Notes under the pieces: model-generated
What the model saw: only the letters and a program-made list of their open reading frames with translations
What the model was told of the DNA's origin: nothing
Databases searched by the model: none
Shown: piece after piece, positions 1 to 8,106 of the stretch
Numbering within the stretch: position 1 is the first letter of the stretch
Layout of the letters: each line of letters opens with the position of its first letter
Translations under genes and position numbers: made by a program
Source: a virus
DNA length: 30,158 nt
Strand: one strand, 5' to 3'
Virus record (IMG/VR): IMGVR_UViG_3300042880_000279
Location: 1 to 30,158 of that record

Positions 1-143
1 CCCGCCACGGTCTCTAAGTGGTTCACTGCGGCGTCGAATTCCCAAGAGCGGGACTCGCGGTTCAGTTCGGCAACGCTGGCCATGGCGAAGTAACGCGCGG
101 CTAGCAGAATATCCATTGAGGCGCGGGTGATTGGGTGATCCAT
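1..143 (-). CDS. Partial small phage protein (cut by window edge)
   Basis: An open frame on the minus strand starts with ATG at 143 and stays open to the window edge (47 codons). It begins MDHPITRASMDILLAARYFA and continues with a helical, hydrophilic sequence. Its start overlaps the stop of the next upstream gene by one base (TGATG), the usual sign of translational coupling, so it is the third gene of the leftward early operon. I do not recognise the family. The C-terminus lies outside the window. Confidence 0.6.
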   Translation of the reverse strand, partial: MDHPITRASMDILLAARYFAMASVAELNRESRSWEFDAAVNHLETVA

Positions 144-658
144 CACGCAGCCCTCGCTTCTGTGCTGATAACGACGCGCAGAAACTCGGCTGTTTGCGCA
201 GCCCACGCCGCATGGATCCCATGCTCGCTCGCCGCATCCCTCGCCGCATCCCACGCCGCAGCCAACGCCGCATCCCACGCCGCATCCCTCGCCGCATCCC
301 TCGCCGCATCCCTCGCCGCATCCAACTCATCTTTGGTCGCCAGTCCGTTTGCGTGCCGCTCTACCACATCAAGCGCGGCGATTGAGCGAGGGTCTGTCAT
401 CAGGTGCTGGACTTGCCGGGTGCACCAGACTGCGAATAAGCGCCATTCCTTCGCGTATTGCGGCTCAGCCCTGCAGCACCACAAAGCGTCATCAAGCCCA
501 TTGATCTCGACAATGCGGGCAAAGGGAATGGGGTCGTCACCACCCCAGCCAGCGCCAAGGCCAGCTTTCAGCTTTTGAAACCCCTCCAAAGGATTTTGAC
601 GAGGGCTCACCCCACACGGTCCATGAGCGCGGATGCGATTGAGTGTCGTGGTGATCAC
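143..658 (-). CDS. Phage protein with C-terminal DAA tandem repeats
   Basis: A 171-residue protein starting with GTG at 658, which overlaps the stop of the upstream gene (GTGA). The N-terminal ~110 residues form a globular part containing INGLDDALWCCRAEP and VWCTRQVQHLMTDPRSIAALDVVERHANGLAT, a family I know from phages and bacteria without an assigned function. Residues ~113-145 are a tetrapeptide-type repeat (DAAR/DAAW) encoded by eight 12-bp units, expected to form an alanine-rich helix. The end carries AASEHGIHAA, a peptide also present in the acetyltransferase-like gene at 21958-22368. Role unknown; probably an accessory early protein. The gene call is secure because the frame is open, coupled at both ends and family-like. 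Confidence 0.8.
   Translation of the reverse strand: MITTTLNRIRAHGPCGVSPRQNPLEGFQKLKAGLGAGWGGDDPIPFARIVEINGLDDALWCCRAEPQYAKEWRLFAVWCTRQVQHLMTDPRSIAALDVVERHANGLATKDELDAARDAARDAARDAAWDAALAAAWDAARDAASEHGIHAAWAAQTAEFLRVVISTEARAA
229..324. repeat. 12-bp minisatellite (8 units) encoding DAA repeats
   Basis: Eight consecutive 12-base units of the form [t/a]cgccgcatccc (plus strand), one of them diverged (gccgcagcca). Being a multiple of three, the unit can expand or contract without shifting the reading frame of the minus-strand gene. It encodes the DAAR/DAAW stretch. Confidence 0.9.
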
Positions 659-954
659 CAGGCGTACTCCTCAATGCGCTCGACAATGCGTTCGTGAAGC
701 TGCTCGGTGTCCTGCTTGATCCCGCGCATCAGGACTTCCCACAAATACGGGTCTGACTGCTTGGTGATGAAGTGCCGCTTGTGGAAAGAGCACTCCTCAA
801 TCTCGATTTCGGTAACTTCCCAATCCCATTCGCCGCGGCCTTCCTCGGAACATGCGAACTCAATTTTGCAATCGAATTCGGTCACGAAATTTCCGAGCTT
901 GGTGAGGACCGGAATGGTCCAGTTCAGTTTGATGCAGTGATCGCTGGAACTCAT
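655..954 (-). CDS. Small acidic early phage protein, unknown function
   Basis: First gene of the leftward operon. I place the start at ATG 954 because GGAG sits 8 bases upstream of it; a GTG at 993 would extend the protein to 112 residues, but it lies inside an operator-like palindrome. The 99-residue product is acidic (for example EWDWEVTEIEIEECSFHKRHF) and has no motif I recognise; it resembles a small single-domain protein with alternating beta strands followed by a C-terminal helix (ERIVERIEEY). Expression is probably controlled by the switch repressor, since two ATCAC-N5-GTGAT sites overlay its promoter. Confidence 0.7.
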   Translation of the reverse strand: MSSSDHCIKLNWTIPVLTKLGNFVTEFDCKIEFACSEEGRGEWDWEVTEIEIEECSFHKRHFITKQSDPYLWEVLMRGIKQDTEQLHERIVERIEEYAW

Positions 955-987
955 GTGGTCTGCTCCCGTGGTGTGATGGGAGAACCA

Positions 988-1004
988 TATCACTTCATGT
1001 GATA
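988..1004. promoter_or_regulatory. Operator-like palindrome O1 (TATCAC-N5-GTGATA)
   Basis: Perfect 6-bp inverted repeat TATCACttcatGTGATA. It shares ATCAC-N5-GTGAT with three other sites at 1019, 1402 and 1428. It covers the -10 region of the predicted leftward promoter. Binding by the XRE repressor at 1114-1368 or the Cro-like protein is inferred. Confidence 0.75.
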
Positions 1005-1026
1005 AAGTGCAAATGAAAAATCACAA
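999..1026 (-). promoter_or_regulatory. Candidate leftward early promoter
   Basis: Read on the minus strand: -35 TTGTGA (1026-1021), 16-base spacer, -10 TATCAC (1004-999). Matches to consensus are moderate. O2 covers the -35 and O1 covers the -10, as expected for a repressed phage promoter driving the genes from 954 leftward. Confidence 0.45.
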
Positions 1027-1035
1027 CGAGTGATA
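1019..1035. promoter_or_regulatory. Operator-like palindrome O2 (ATCAC-N5-GTGAT)
   Basis: AATCACaacgaGTGATA; 5-bp perfect arms and 5-base spacer, the same design as O1, O3 and O4. Its centre is 31 bases from that of O1, about three helical turns, so dimers could contact each other on one DNA face. Confidence 0.7.
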
Positions 1036-1113
1036 TCTTTTTTGACGCGCAGACCTGTTACGCGTTGTATTTCAGCAGCTTAATGCAATCAAAAATTTAC
1101 GTAGGGGGCAGGC

Positions 1114-1368
1114 TTAGACCCTGGCCAAATGCCCGAGTGCGATGGGCATTCCAGCTGCTTTCCCGAAAAACAGCCAATCTAGCGACACATCATAAACACG
1201 AACTAATTCAACAGCCACTTCAAGGGTTAAAGGGCGCTTGCCTGTTTCATACTGGCTCCATTGGGATTGCCCCGCGCCAATGGTCTCGGCAAATTGCTCT
1301 TGGTTTAGCCCCGCGTGATCACGAAGCGCCTTGAGCCGACGGCCAACTATTTTGGGGGAATCGGTCAT
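1114..1368 (-). CDS. XRE-family phage repressor (CI/Cro type)
   Basis: An 84-residue helix-turn-helix protein. The open frame extends upstream to 1476, but I choose ATG 1368 because the domain starts right after it (MTDSPKIVGRRLKALRDHAG) and the longer version would run through both operators. The HTH is LNQEQFAETIGAGQSQWSQYETGKRPL, a typical XRE motif with recognition helix QSQWSQYETG. Nothing like an S24 (LexA/CI) self-cleavage domain is present, so induction would not go through RecA-stimulated autocleavage of this protein. It is divergent from the Cro-like gene across a 76-base region with O3 and O4, and is the best candidate for binding all four sites. Whether it is the CI-like or the Cro-like partner cannot be read from sequence alone. 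Confidence 0.85.
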   Translation of the reverse strand: MTDSPKIVGRRLKALRDHAGLNQEQFAETIGAGQSQWSQYETGKRPLTLEVAVELVRVYDVSLDWLFFGKAAGMPIALGHLARV

Positions 1369-1401
1369 GGTTATTCGTAGAGCAATCGCAAAAAATCGAA
1401 A

Positions 1402-1418
1402 AATCACCGTGTGTGATG
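1402..1418. promoter_or_regulatory. Operator-like palindrome O3 (ATCAC-N5-GTGAT)
   Basis: AATCACcgtgtGTGATG, between the divergent repressor and Cro-like genes. Arms and spacing match O1, O2 and O4. Confidence 0.75.
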
Positions 1419-1419
1419 C

Positions 1420-1446
1420 TTGATTGCAATCACGTAGTGTGATAAT
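1420..1446 (+). promoter_or_regulatory. Candidate rightward early promoter
   Basis: -35 TTGATT (1420-1425) and -10 GATAAT (1441-1446) with a short 15-base spacer. O4 covers the spacer and -10. If used, transcription would start near 1453, giving an almost leaderless message for the ATG at 1457. Confidence 0.4.
1428..1444. promoter_or_regulatory. Operator-like palindrome O4 (ATCAC-N5-GTGAT)
   Basis: AATCACgtagtGTGATA, ending one base before the first ATG of the Cro-like gene. Its centre is 26 bases from O3. Occupancy should block initiation of the rightward transcript. Confidence 0.75.
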
Positions 1447-1666
1447 GCATGCGCTTATGGAGCAGGCTTCAGACATAAAGGCATTTGTAAAGGCCCTTGG
1501 TGGCGCAAAGAAAGTGGCGGCATTGACGGGGGTTGGCCCTGGTGCCGTCTACATGGCGATTTTGCGCGGAACTATCCCGCACAAGTGGCGGCTTCCCATG
1601 TTTGCGGAAGCAAAAGCCAAGAAAGTGAAGTTCGACCCGTCTCTCCTCGGCTTGGAAGCCGCCTGA
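1445..1666 (+). CDS. Cro-like (carph-isopro type) HTH regulator
   Basis: A 73-residue protein from ATG 1445, or 69 residues from ATG 1457 (the -10-like GATAAT overlaps the first ATG, which favours 1457; neither has a clear ribosome site). The sequence IKAFVKALGGAKKVAALTGVGPGAVYMAILRGTIPHKW matches the short YdaS/Cro-like HTH proteins sometimes labelled carph-isopro domain: an ALGG start, an HTH, and an IP.+W segment. Such proteins act as Cro-type antirepressors opposite a CI-type repressor. Divergent arrangement with 1114-1368 and O4 directly upstream support an autoregulated lytic-side regulator. Confidence 0.8.
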   Translation: MHALMEQASDIKAFVKALGGAKKVAALTGVGPGAVYMAILRGTIPHKWRLPMFAEAKAKKVKFDPSLLGLEAA

Positions 1667-2473: not shown

Positions 2474-3634
2474 ATGGAATTTCACCCGATTGCAAACTGC
2501 TTCCCGCTGATCGATGGCCGCGAGTTTGATGAGCTTGTGGCCGACGTCAAGGCTCACGGCATTCATGAGCCTGTGATCATTCATGAAGGTATGATCCTAG
2601 ACGGGCGCAACAGGTATCGCGCTTCCCAGATTGCGGGCGTTGACTGTCCGCTGGTTCCGTATGACGGGAATGATCCGGTAGGATTTGTTGTCTCGCTCAA
2701 CCTTCGGCGTCGGCACCTCAGCGAGGGGCAGCGTGCTTGGGTGGCTGCACAGATTGCTAACTTGGGGCATGGGGAAAAGAAGGCAGATAGATCAATTGAT
2801 CTATCTTCTGTGTCTCAAGAAGACGCGGCCACAATGCTTAACGTAAGCGTGCCGAGCGTGAAGCGCGCGACTGTAGTCCGCGATCACGGCGTTCCCGAGC
2901 TGCAAGACAAGGTAGCCAAAGGTGAAGTAGCCCCGTCCACCGCCGCTGATGTCGCTCGTCTTCCTCAGGAGGAACAAAAGGAGATCGTGGCCAAGGGCGA
3001 GAAGGAAATCCTTGAGGCCGCGAAACGCATTCGTTCCGAGAAGGCAGAACAGCGCCGCGCGGAACTGGTTGAGGTTGCGGCGACAAAGGTTGAAATGCCA
3101 GACGGCAAGTTTGAAACGATCATCATTGATCCGCCGTGGCCAATGCAGAAGATCGAGCGGGATGTACGCCCGAATCAGGTGGCTTTCGAATACCCGACAA
3201 TGACGGAAGGCGAGCTTGTTGTATTTGGCGACAAGGTCAACGATGCGGCGGCGGATGATTGCCACATGTTCATGTGGACCACACACAAGTTTTTGCCAAT
3301 GTCGCTTCGGCTGCTAGAGGCTTGGGGCTTTCGTTATGTGCTTACGATGGTGTGGCACAAGAACGGCGGGTTCCAGCCGATTGGTTTACCGCAGTACAAC
3401 TGCGAATTCTGTGTCTATGCGCGCAAAGGTTCACCAAGCTTTGCTGATACCAAGGCATTTAACGCTTGCTTCGATGCGCCACGGCGCGAGCATAGCCGGA
3501 AGCCAGATGAGTTCTATGACGTCATTCGCCGCGTAACGCATGGACCGCGTATTGATGTCTTTTCGCGCGAGCGGAGGGAAGGCTTCTCGCAGTTTGGTAA
3601 TGAAGCTGGCCTGTTTTCTGGCGAGGCCGCATGA
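2474..3634 (+). CDS. ParB-like domain fused to MT-A70 adenine-N6 methyltransferase
   Basis: 386 residues in two parts. Residues ~5-90 are a ParB/sulfiredoxin-like domain: FDELVADVKAHGIHEPVIIH, the core ILDGRNRYRA (41-50) and LNLRRRHLSEGQRA (75-88), followed by a helical HTH-like stretch to ~200. Residues ~207-375 are an MT-A70 methyltransferase: the catalytic DPPW is at 219-222 in FETIIIDPPWPM, with MWTTHKFLPMSLRLLEAWGF and VWHKNGG downstream. The expected reaction is transfer of methyl from S-adenosylmethionine to adenine N6. In phages such enzymes can protect DNA from host restriction. The ParB part could supply target recognition (inference). The next gene overlaps by 4 bases (ATGA). Confidence 0.92.
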   Translation: MEFHPIANCFPLIDGREFDELVADVKAHGIHEPVIIHEGMILDGRNRYRASQIAGVDCPLVPYDGNDPVGFVVSLNLRRRHLSEGQRAWVAAQIANLGHGEKKADRSIDLSSVSQEDAATMLNVSVPSVKRATVVRDHGVPELQDKVAKGEVAPSTAADVARLPQEEQKEIVAKGEKEILEAAKRIRSEKAEQRRAELVEVAATKVEMPDGKFETIIIDPPWPMQKIERDVRPNQVAFEYPTMTEGELVVFGDKVNDAAADDCHMFMWTTHKFLPMSLRLLEAWGFRYVLTMVWHKNGGFQPIGLPQYNCEFCVYARKGSPSFADTKAFNACFDAPRREHSRKPDEFYDVIRRVTHGPRIDVFSRERREGFSQFGNEAGLFSGEAA

Positions 3635-5290: not shown

Positions 5291-6702
5291 TGGGTTTACC
5301 GTTCAAGCAACAGGACCCCGCCCTTGATGAGCGGTTCGGTAACGAGGCGGGCCTTGTTGGTGCCCTGCTGATTTATGCCGATCCGGCGCTATATCGTGCT
5401 TCCGCCGCCATATGTGAGGCGGGGCATTTCTCTGACCCGTTCAATGCGCGCATGTTTGAGACAATCGGACGCGGTGTTGAGGCCGGACTTGCCAATTTCC
5501 CCTTGGTGCACTGGATTATCGGGCAATTCCGCGATGATCAGACGCTTGATGAAATGAAGATCACTGCTTCGGGGATTGTCGCAAAATATTGCGGCATGGC
5601 ATTCCCGGCAATTGCTGTTGAGGGGGCCTCTCGGCAGCTAAAGCATGATTTCCTGAAGGACCTGCTTAACGAAGTGGTTGAGTCCGGGGATACTGCGGCG
5701 GCGGAAACCACTGCGGCGGAAATGGAACGGCTTTCCCGCGCGCACCTGACCAAGGATGCGGGCATTGACCGCTTGGGCAACGTGGCCCGTGGGGTTGTCG
5801 AGCGGATATCCGATAGTTTTGCGAATGGCGTGGTGCCGGATCATTCCGCGTGGCCCGGATCGGCGCGTTTGGCTGAGCTTATGGGCGGCTGGCGTCGTGG
5901 CAGGCTTTACGTGATCGGCGGGCGTCCGGGTGCCGGCAAGACCACGGCAGCGCTTTCCTTGCTGCTCAGGACGGCAGAGAGGGGCCATGGCGTCCTGATG
6001 TTTGAGCTTGAAATGACGGCTCAAGAGCTAACTGAGATTGCCTTGTGCGATATGGCTTGGTCGAGCAAGGCCCGGATCGAGTATCGTGACCTGTCCACCT
6101 TCACAGATATCAGCCAGGACAAGGTTGAAAGGCTATGTGCCGCTGATAACCGGCTTCAGCGCCTGCCGTTTGTGATTTCGGATTCGCCGGGCCTGACCAT
6201 AGCTGAGATACGTTCTCAGGCCATGCAGTATGCCCAACGGCTTGAGGCGAGCGGATCACGGCTTGAGGTGGTCTGCATTGATCACCTGAACCTCGTGAAG
6301 GCGACGGGCCGCTATCAAAGCAACAAGGTGGCAGAGACTGAGGAGGTCTCGAATGCCTTGAAGGCGCTGGCCAAGGAATTGAAGTGCGCCGTTGTCGTGT
6401 TGTGTCAGCTCAACCGTGGTGTTGAGGGCCGGGACGACAAGAGGCCGGGGCTGGCGGATTTGAGGTGGTCCGGCGCGATTGAGCAGGACGCTGACATGGT
6501 GATGTTTGTTTACCGTGAGGCCTATTACCTGTCCAAGCCGGTTGATGATCCTACAGCCGATATTGAGCGCCAGGACAGGCTTCGGGAAGTCCAGAACAGG
6601 TTGGAAGTCATTGTGGCGAAGCATCGCGGCGGGCCGACGCCGGTGCTGGAGTTCTTCTGCGACATGGGGTGCGGTGTGGTTCGAGATATGGAGAAGCGCT
6701 GA
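5290..6702 (+). CDS. dnaB: DnaB-like replicative DNA helicase
   Basis: 470 residues, start sharing one base with the gcrA stop (TAATG). The N-terminal domain (FGNEAGLVGALLIYADPALY) matches the DnaB primase-interacting domain. The RecA-like ATPase has Walker A GRPGAGKTT (211-219), the Walker-B strand VVCIDHLNLV, motif VVLCQLNR, and DLRWSGAIEQDADMVMFVYRE. The end, AKHRGGPTPVLEFFCDMG, is the usual DnaB finish. It unwinds phage DNA at the fork as a hexamer. No phage polymerase or primase gene is in the window, so host enzymes are probably used. The following gene overlaps by one base. Confidence 0.93.
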   Translation: MGLPFKQQDPALDERFGNEAGLVGALLIYADPALYRASAAICEAGHFSDPFNARMFETIGRGVEAGLANFPLVHWIIGQFRDDQTLDEMKITASGIVAKYCGMAFPAIAVEGASRQLKHDFLKDLLNEVVESGDTAAAETTAAEMERLSRAHLTKDAGIDRLGNVARGVVERISDSFANGVVPDHSAWPGSARLAELMGGWRRGRLYVIGGRPGAGKTTAALSLLLRTAERGHGVLMFELEMTAQELTEIALCDMAWSSKARIEYRDLSTFTDISQDKVERLCAADNRLQRLPFVISDSPGLTIAEIRSQAMQYAQRLEASGSRLEVVCIDHLNLVKATGRYQSNKVAETEEVSNALKALAKELKCAVVVLCQLNRGVEGRDDKRPGLADLRWSGAIEQDADMVMFVYREAYYLSKPVDDPTADIERQDRLREVQNRLEVIVAKHRGGPTPVLEFFCDMGCGVVRDMEKR

Positions 6703-7529
6703 TGAGTGTGTCATCACAGGAATTGCGGAAGCTTGCGGCTCTGAACCTTTCTCCTGAGCAGATGTCAGCCGTGCTCAACCTTCTTGCAGATCGCGCCGAA
6801 GCTGAGGAGCGTAGGAAGGCTGCTCAGGCGGAAATGCCTTGTGCGGCTTTTGGCGGGGCGGGCAAATCAAAGGGTGCTGAAAGGACGGCTCGCTGGCGCG
6901 CCAAGAAAGCTGGCGATCAGGGCGTCACAGAAAGCGTCACAAGCGTCACAGAAAGCGTCACAGAAAGCGTCACAAGCGTCACAGAAAGCGTCACAAGCGT
7001 CACAGAAAGCGTCACAAGCGTCACCCCTTCCCCCCTTGTTCCCCCCCTTGAAGTTTCCCCCACACCCCCTTCTAAAACCCCCCCTATAATCCCCCCATCC
7101 CAGCCGCGCGCGCCTGACGAGTTCGAGGCTGTTGACGCTGCGCTTCGGAAAATCGAAGGCCTCGGCAACCATCCGGTGGCGGTTGATCCCGTCATCGGCC
7201 CAATCTGGCAACTGGTCCAGCAGGGCTACAACCTCAAAACCGAAATCATTCCGAGCATTCGCCAGCAAATCGCCAAGACCCGAAAGCGAATAACCCGATG
7301 GGGGTATTTCGTTCCGGGCATCATCGAGGCCAGAACCGGGCCTGCTGAGGTGATTTCGCCCGCCGTCACTGCCGATTGGCAAAAGAAACTTGATTGGGCA
7401 AGGCGGGAACGCAAATGGCCCTACAGCGCATGGGGGCCACCGCCTCACAAGCCCGGTTGCCGTGTCCCGCCTGCGATGCTCAAGCCGGATGACGGCGAAG
7501 GCTGGGGCGATTGGAGGCTGGCCTCATGA
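6702..7529 (+). CDS. Putative phage replication/primosomal protein with VTES repeats
   Basis: 275 residues from ATG 6702, coupled to the helicase stop. Residues 1-45 are helical (LRKLAALNLSPEQMSAVLNLLADRAEAEERR); then ERTARWRAKKA, a basic motif seen at the start of many phage replisome organiser-type proteins. Residues ~75-110 are a VTES/VTS repeat, followed by a ~25-residue proline-rich linker. The C-terminal domain (FEAVDAALRKIEGLGNHP to GYFVPGIIEART) is a conserved phage domain near dnaB genes. By position and architecture it may load the helicase or bind the origin, as lambda O and P do. The repeat DNA inside the gene may itself be the origin. Activity is inferred, not shown. Confidence 0.65.
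   Translation: MSVSSQELRKLAALNLSPEQMSAVLNLLADRAEAEERRKAAQAEMPCAAFGGAGKSKGAERTARWRAKKAGDQGVTESVTSVTESVTESVTSVTESVTSVTESVTSVTPSPLVPPLEVSPTPPSKTPPIIPPSQPRAPDEFEAVDAALRKIEGLGNHPVAVDPVIGPIWQLVQQGYNLKTEIIPSIRQQIAKTRKRITRWGYFVPGIIEARTGPAEVISPAVTADWQKKLDWARRERKWPYSAWGPPPHKPGCRVPPAMLKPDDGEGWGDWRLAS
6922..7025. repeat. Iteron-like direct repeats, 10 x GCGTCACA
   Basis: Ten copies of GCGTCACA (the last ends in C) at 6922, 6934, 6943, 6955, 6967, 6976, 6988, 6997, 7009 and 7018. Spacings alternate mostly 12 and 9, giving a 21-base higher-order period, two helical turns. They lie within the replication-type gene and are followed by a pyrimidine-rich tract. The geometry resembles origin iterons in lambda O, but protein linker expansion is the alternative. 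Confidence 0.85.
7022..7101. other. Strand-asymmetric pyrimidine tract next to the repeats
   Basis: About 80 bases that are overwhelmingly C and T on the plus strand, including several runs of five or more C. Encodes the proline-rich linker of the replication-type protein. Such tracts can form unusual DNA structures; functional meaning is uncertain. Confidence 0.6.
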
Positions 7530-7657
7530 ACTACGTCTACACCCTCCTCCTCTCCGCCTATGGCCCTCGCTGCAAGTCCTACAACCCCAAATGCGAGGCA
7601 TGCCGGGCGTGGGCTGAATACGACGCCATGAAGGCCATCACAAAGGAAGCGGCATGA
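7526..7657 (+). CDS. 43-residue cysteine-containing phage protein
   Basis: Starts at ATG 7526 overlapping the previous stop and ends overlapping the next start (ATGA at both ends), so it fits exactly between two genes. The sequence begins MNYVYTLLLSAYGPRCKSYN and continues KCEACRAWAEYDAMK; three cysteines (C16, C23, C26) could bind a metal with another ligand. Function unknown. The perfect coupling at both ends is the main evidence that it is translated. Confidence 0.65.
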   Translation: MNYVYTLLLSAYGPRCKSYNPKCEACRAWAEYDAMKAITKEAA

Positions 7658-8106
7658 GCTGGCTAATCGTTAGGACTGACGCCCGCAAGGAATCCTATGT
7701 GGCCGCTCAAATAGCCGGGCATGGCCATGACGCATGGGTTCCCGCTCAAATGATCCCGGTCCGCCCTCATGGCGCTCGCAAGCTCACGGCAAAGGCTGGG
7801 GTGACCATCAAAGAGCTGCCGATCCTTCCGAGGCGGGTTTTTGTGCAGGTTGATTGGCATGAGGCGAATTCGTTCGCCAGCATTCGCCACGTTCAAGGCG
7901 TAGAGCGTGACGGGGAGGAGCGGGTTATCCTCATTCCTGACGCTCAAGTTGCCTCATTCAGGGCAGAGATAGACCGTGAGAACACGTCAGCGCTGGCCTT
8001 GGCACAAGCCAGAAGCCGTAAGCAGAAAGCGAAATGGCGCTCGCTTCAGGAAGGGCTTATTGACCTGATTGACAGCGCAAAGCAAAAAATGAGCCAAGCG
8101 GCATAG
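7654..8106 (+). CDS. NusG-like phage transcription antiterminator
   Basis: 150 residues from ATG 7654 (ATGA coupling). The N-terminal ~95 residues resemble the NusG NGN domain: WLIVRTDARKESYVAAQIAGHGHDAWVP (the beta strand, helix and aromatic region), a short insertion, then ELPILPRRVFVQVDW corresponding to the PLFPGYVFV strand of NusG, and FASIRHVQGV. The C-terminal part is a charged helix, with no KOW domain visible. NusG paralogues bind the RNA polymerase clamp and suppress pausing or termination. As last gene before the late region, it could act as the late-operon antiterminator (inference). Confidence 0.85.
   Translation: MSWLIVRTDARKESYVAAQIAGHGHDAWVPAQMIPVRPHGARKLTAKAGVTIKELPILPRRVFVQVDWHEANSFASIRHVQGVERDGEERVILIPDAQVASFRAEIDRENTSALALAQARSRKQKAKWRSLQEGLIDLIDSAKQKMSQAA

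Follow-up and report, generated by a model that had tools for sequence, protein, structure and literature searches.

Two pairs of ATCAC-N5-GTGAT palindromes as predicted operators of a single-domain repressor in a proposed lysis-lysogeny switch of a temperate virus

The window analyzed here spans an entire IMG/VR virus record (30,158 bases) that carries P22-like portal and coat genes. Its terminase is 73–75% identical to those of the Rhizobium phages RHph_N3_2 and RHph_N2, and the host is likely alphaproteobacterial. Judged by its sequence, the region of interest is laid out as in a lambda-type switch: the gene for an 84-aa XRE repressor lies between a set of putative operators at a leftward promoter (PL) and a set at a rightward promoter (PR), and a cro-like gene is divergent from it (Table 1). 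Several other features were noted in the record. A NusG-like gene (7654–8106; Pfam NusG, 4.9e-7; phrog_6386, transcription antiterminator) lies between the replication and terminase genes, and the protein encoded at 2474–3634 combines a ParB-like N-terminal part with an MT-A70 methyltransferase domain. Two tandem arrays lie within coding sequence: a 12-base repeat in eight copies (228–323) inside the second PL gene, giving AARDAA protein repeats, and an array of GCGTCACAGAAA (6922–7024), giving repeated VTSVTES in the protein of 6669–7529.

Table 1. Features of the predicted switch region and their positions in the window
Feature	Position	Strand	Remarks
PL operon gene 2, 171 aa, phrog_18326 (unknown function)	143..658	-	
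PL operon gene 1, 99 aa, function not assigned	655..954	-	GGGAG before the start codon
Candidate PL -10 box TATGGT	984..989	-	17 bp from the -35 box; read from sequence
Putative operator O1 (OL, promoter-proximal)	988..1004	.	TATCACTTCATGTGATA; occupies the PL -35/-10 spacer
Candidate PL -35 box TTGCAC	1007..1012	-	read from sequence; TTG recurs in the PL pairs of relatives
Putative operator O2 (OL, distal)	1019..1035	.	AATCACAACGAGTGATA; directly upstream of the PL -35 box; O1–O2 spacing, 31 bp
XRE repressor, 84 aa, single-domain	1114..1368	-	recognition helix GQSQWSQY; tail motif DWLFFG
Putative operator O3 (OR, distal)	1402..1418	.	AATCACCGTGTGTGATG; directly upstream of the PR -35 box
Candidate PR -35 box TTGATT	1420..1425	+	TTG at most 14 bases before the cro-proximal operator in 22/22 loci
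Putative operator O4 (OR, cro-proximal)	1428..1444	.	AATCACGTAGTGTGATA; within the PR spacer, overlaps the -10 region
Candidate PR -10 region, GATAAT (1441-1446) or TAATGC (1443-1448)	1441..1448	+	read from sequence
Cro-like protein, 69 aa, probable near-leaderless start	1457..1666	+	

The sequence ATCAC-N5-GTGAT occurs as an exact 15-bp palindrome at 989–1003, 1020–1034, 1403–1417, and 1429–1443, with no further exact copies in the whole record. The expectation from 100 dinucleotide shuffles was 0.04 exact copies, compared with the four found; no shuffled sequence contained more than one. When two mismatches were permitted, we counted 17 matches against 10.1 expected, and the operator signal therefore depends on the exact sites. 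The initial annotation had described four 17-bp palindromes with identical arms. The four sites and their rarity are upheld by this analysis, but the arms are identical over only 5 bp, the sixth, outermost base being T, A, or C among the sites, so that the description was slightly overstated. From start to start, O1 to O4 are spaced by 31, 383, and 26 bp. Each of the two predicted outward-pointing promoters has one site in its spacer and the other directly upstream of its -35 box.

The predicted promoter boxes are weak by Escherichia coli standards, and a strict σ70 consensus scan reported no promoter between positions 600 and 2100. We nevertheless trust the assigned boxes because the TTG box recurs in relatives, as described below. 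Downstream of PL, the leader RNA (950–987, minus strand) can form a small hairpin, CTCCC...GGGAG. The PL leaders of 19 relatives are alike, with a hairpin of the form CCATC...GATGGAGG whose 3′ arm often contains the Shine-Dalgarno sequence. Folding of 20 leaders, taken from 22 loci after omission of L113 and L114 as near-copies of L110 and L115, gave z < −1 in 15 (mean, −2.1) relative to mononucleotide shuffles. The hairpin is possibly a translational control element or a binding site. A Shine-Dalgarno-like stretch precedes the start of the PL gene in 17 of the 22 loci, a count biased upward since the starts were partly picked for it.

On the other side of the repressor gene, a 73-residue Cro-like protein had been assigned to the ATG at 1445. 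We revised this start, since that ATG falls within the PR -10 region and the start of the closest relative aligns with position 1457, which gives a protein of 69 aa. Translation probably begins at ATG 1457, almost without a leader. The same arrangement was seen in all 22 loci with a PL pair, where the cro ATG lies 7–13 nt past the PR operator and only one has a Shine-Dalgarno-like sequence; the window conforms to it. For this comparison the cro-proximal operators were picked by hand, and the ATG was sought 7–16 nt and then 7 to about 19 nt downstream.

The repressor matches the profiles HTH_31 (1.2e-14) and HTH_3 (2.3e-13), and its predicted fold (mean pLDDT, 94.2) consists of one HTH domain and a C-terminal helix. 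Among the PDB neighbors of the model are the single-domain C.AhdI and the DNA-binding domains of the P22 c2, 434, and lambda repressors. The tail, DVSLDWLFFG, agrees with the motif G-V-S/T-x-D-W-L/I-Y/F-R/F-G that we derived from an alignment of homologous short repressors. Profile search, structure prediction, and structure comparison revealed no oligomerization domain. Because the protein is also without a LexA-like C-terminal domain, RecA-stimulated self-cleavage should not remove it, and we therefore infer that induction would take another route, such as an antirepressor or loss of the repressor. That an antirepressor is encoded in the PL operon is a guess.

The nearest relative, the contig of loci L083 and L129, encodes a repressor 48% identical and a Cro 68% identical to those of the window. 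The latter was found with an alignment query alone (L129), whereas a single-protein search with Cro against viral contigs and phages returned no relatives. This contig has four sites in matching places. Taken in order from PL to cro, they have 1, 2, 2, and 0 mismatches, and two of the four have a degenerate arm; the spacings are 32, 453, and 26 bp compared with 31, 383, and 26 bp in the window. Absence of the motif from close relatives had been set out in advance as a refuting condition. The motif is present in the closest relative, but distant relatives are mostly without it, and the exact motif is absent from 9 of 10 records of relatives with other recognition helices; about half of the distant relatives examined carry an array of their own together with a different recognition helix. 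RHph_N3_2 and RHph_N2, which are relatives by their structural genes, contain no exact ATCAC-N5-GTGAT site. Capsid kinship is therefore no predictor of the switch.

We then compared the arrangement of sites across 49 repressor loci, comprising 46 found by repressor similarity, the window, L034, and L079. L019 was omitted because it shares a contig with L087, and L005 and L076–L078 were left unscored. Two loci are not independent of the motif: L034, which was found by it, and L087, whose contig was found by it through L019; the other 45 of the 46 were found by protein similarity. In 24 of the 49 loci, the best family of 17-bp dyads lies on both sides of the gene at p ≤ 0.02 (100 dinucleotide shuffles); no dyad family reached this threshold in the remaining 25. 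The half-sites in relatives include ATGGAA/C, ATCGAC, ATCCGA, ATGCAG, CTTCAA, ATCTAG, and ATCCTA, among others. In 22 of the 24 loci, the downstream (PL) pair is 30–32 bp apart, with a TTG box closing the gap directly before the second site, and the PL pair of the window fits this geometry. The exceptions are L120 and L127, in which the 31-bp pair is missing; only GC-rich matches were obtained for L120 and for L079, a related locus from a Bradyrhizobium phage.

A spacing scan and a strict pair scan, for both of which four named phage loci (L130–L133) were added, gave the same picture. The spacing scan took all pairs of similar dyads 14–90 bp apart downstream of the repressor, with no sequence tuning and with loci clustered at 70% protein identity. 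PL dyads 31 bp apart occurred in 13 of 37 clusters, and every other spacing in three at most. The strict scan for pairs 30–32 bp apart matched 23 of 53 loci, and each of these has the TTG. Elsewhere in those loci, the same scan gave 43 matches (eight with TTG) in 586,234 bases, which corresponds to a chance expectation of about 1.8 matches in the 24.9 kb scanned, compared with 23 loci. The spacings on the PR side are varied, at 24–26, 30, 41, or 59 bp.

A scan of viral contigs for motif pairs (70 stretches) also yielded XRE families that share this half-site but have different spacings; we kept these out of the spacing statistics. In a further family of short XRE repressors (about 126–142 aa; L022, L054, L051, L012, and L039), the ATCAC half-site flanks the gene on both sides and the PL spacings are 34–35 bp, for example in L022, L039, and L051. 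More than 20 near-identical contigs (L024, L030, and others like them; L006, L008, and others like them) have five ATCAC-N5-GTGAT sites, four together and one 220 bp off, between or within two XRE genes whose third helices read TSTIGM in one and SYSLLSK in the other.

We propose that the four palindromes serve as operators for the lysogeny repressor whose gene they flank, and that a dimer of this protein would block both PL and PR. To this reading, which adds inferred binding and promoter activity to the computed rarity, conservation, geometry, and covariation of the sites, we assign a probability of roughly 0.87. The dimer would use the third helix of the 84-aa protein to recognize each 17-bp dyad, and the bound pair would bracket the RNA polymerase site at each promoter. 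Bound repressor would thereby silence the two minus-strand PL genes as well as cro and the early genes on the plus strand. If repression failed, a nearly leaderless mRNA from PR would be translated into the small Cro-like protein, and the leftward operon would be expressed from PL. Cooperation across the 14-bp gap of the PL pair is possible. The earlier proposal that the site pairs lie on leftward and rightward promoters flanking the XRE repressor gene is supported by conservation and covariation in relatives.

It had also been suggested that the repressor loops across its own gene. The same switch would then operate, with the repressor in addition bridging the OL and OR pairs as lambda CI does. 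Relatives do retain both pairs, and a short phage repressor that is tetrameric in solution, gp33-103 of BPs, is on record in the accessible part of its description (PMC4557955). Against such bridging, the window repressor is without an oligomerization domain, and the inter-pair distances, 409–709 bp in 16 loci, keep no consistent helical phase. With one locus per cluster (n = 16), Rayleigh p values at the five periods tried, from 10.0 to 11.0, were 0.04, 0.99, 0.06, 0.10, and 0.55. We therefore found no support for looping over the repressor gene and consider it improbable.

The sites could also be chiefly Cro operators, with the XRE protein binding elsewhere. O4 overlaps the PR -10 region, a frequent place of Cro action, and the L083 contig retains the sites together with a Cro of 68% identity. 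However, sites are also found on the PL side of the repressor gene, and the half-sites track the recognition helix of the XRE protein. In 18 representatives, with one half-site entered by hand for each (L121 was set to CTTCAA), half-site similarity correlated with similarity of the seven recognition-helix residues (Spearman 0.38), and the correlation persisted as a partial one on the rest of the protein (0.34); none of 2000 permutations reached either value. The correlation of half-sites with the rest of the protein was 0.26, reached in 7 of 2000 permutations. Because the half-site tracks helix 3 more than the rest of the protein, the XRE protein is indicated as the reader, and a primary role for Cro appears slightly less probable even than looping. 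A chance origin or a host regulator, favored only by the general frequency of palindromes in promoters, is most improbable given the excess of exact sites over expectation, their conserved positions in the L083/L129 contig, and their absence from nearly all records with other recognition helices.

We thus return to the XRE repressor, which, as had been proposed, very probably reads both operator pairs; site conservation and half-site covariation in relatives point to this at the sequence level. The half-site of the window, TATCAC, is the same as the consensus half-site that we computed for lambda from NC_001416, and the recognition helix has GQS like that of lambda CI. When all positions of the window were ranked with a matrix built from the lambda operators, O1 came first, O3 third, O4 fourth, and O2 sixth. 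A plain lambda recognition code was considered and rejected: L083 and L034 have TQP yet the same half-site, and L121 has KQP and a different one. The likeness to lambda is only suggestive, because L083 and L034 share the half-site via TQP.

The CI protein of lambda has oligomerization and cleavage domains and 237 residues, compared with 84 residues and one HTH domain in the window repressor. Lambda (NC_001416) and, by prediction, the window share 17-bp operators and divergent PL and PR promoters around the repressor gene; in lambda, however, there are three operators per side, 20–24 bp apart, where the window has two pairs with spacings of 31 and 26 bp, and OL is separated from cI by rexA and rexB. 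A closer match in layout is the immC region of Rhizobium phage 16-3 (NC_011103.1), where the repressor gene c is flanked by annotated operators, OL1 and OL2 at PL and OR1 and OR2 at Pr. As in the window, OL2 lies between the PL -35 and -10 boxes and OL1 directly upstream, and the OR1–OR2 spacing is 26 bp, the same as at PR of the window. The 16-3 operators differ in sequence, and their OL spacing is 17 bp compared with 31 bp. The C protein of 16-3 has 263 aa with a long C-terminal region, and BLASTP against the window repressor found no useful similarity (E = 6.4).

Two further phages share single elements with the window. According to the available sections of its description, gp33-103 of mycobacteriophage BPs is likewise a short repressor, and an operator falls between the PR -10 and -35 boxes, but BPs differs from the window in its operators, its tetrameric repressor, and its integration-dependent immunity (PMC4557955). 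At immB of PY54, RACE showed a leaderless cro mRNA; as far as the accessible text describes it, PY54 differs from the window in being a telomere phage with a CI/Cro pair and another operator placement (PMC4488713). The layout with two operators on each side is thus already known from 16-3; what sets the present switch apart is the single-domain repressor, the 31-bp PL geometry, and the diversity of half-sites. In the accessible parts of the literature searched, which was mostly open-access, we found no description of the short-repressor family, its 31-bp PL geometry, or its operators.

The occurrence of the same layout and spacing with different binding sequences in relatives suggests that this compact form of the lysis-lysogeny switch is widespread, which can be tested. 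With odds slightly better than even, we regard it as a widespread, undescribed class that would combine a single-domain repressor of about 80–110 aa beyond the reach of SOS cleavage, a rigid clamp at PL in which two dyads flank the -35 box at a distance of three helical turns, and a leaderless cro at PR; its half-sites would diversify along with the recognition helix, but its geometry would not change. Such a class would raise the questions of what induces a phage whose repressor has no cleavable domain and why the three-turn PL spacing is kept although a protein of this size hardly seems able to bridge the 14-bp gap.

Outside the lambdoid group, operator prediction is difficult for temperate phages. 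Those of Brucella phage BiPBO1 were reported as not predictable in silico in the accessible portion of its description (PMC4729917), and for Sinorhizobium prophages the available sections of the report describe no operators like those of lambda or 16-3 (PMC12429752). A fixed geometry would make operators findable from sequence alone and shared immunity predictable. If the proposed class is real, the family would constitute a natural set of matched repressor-operator pairs and immunity types.
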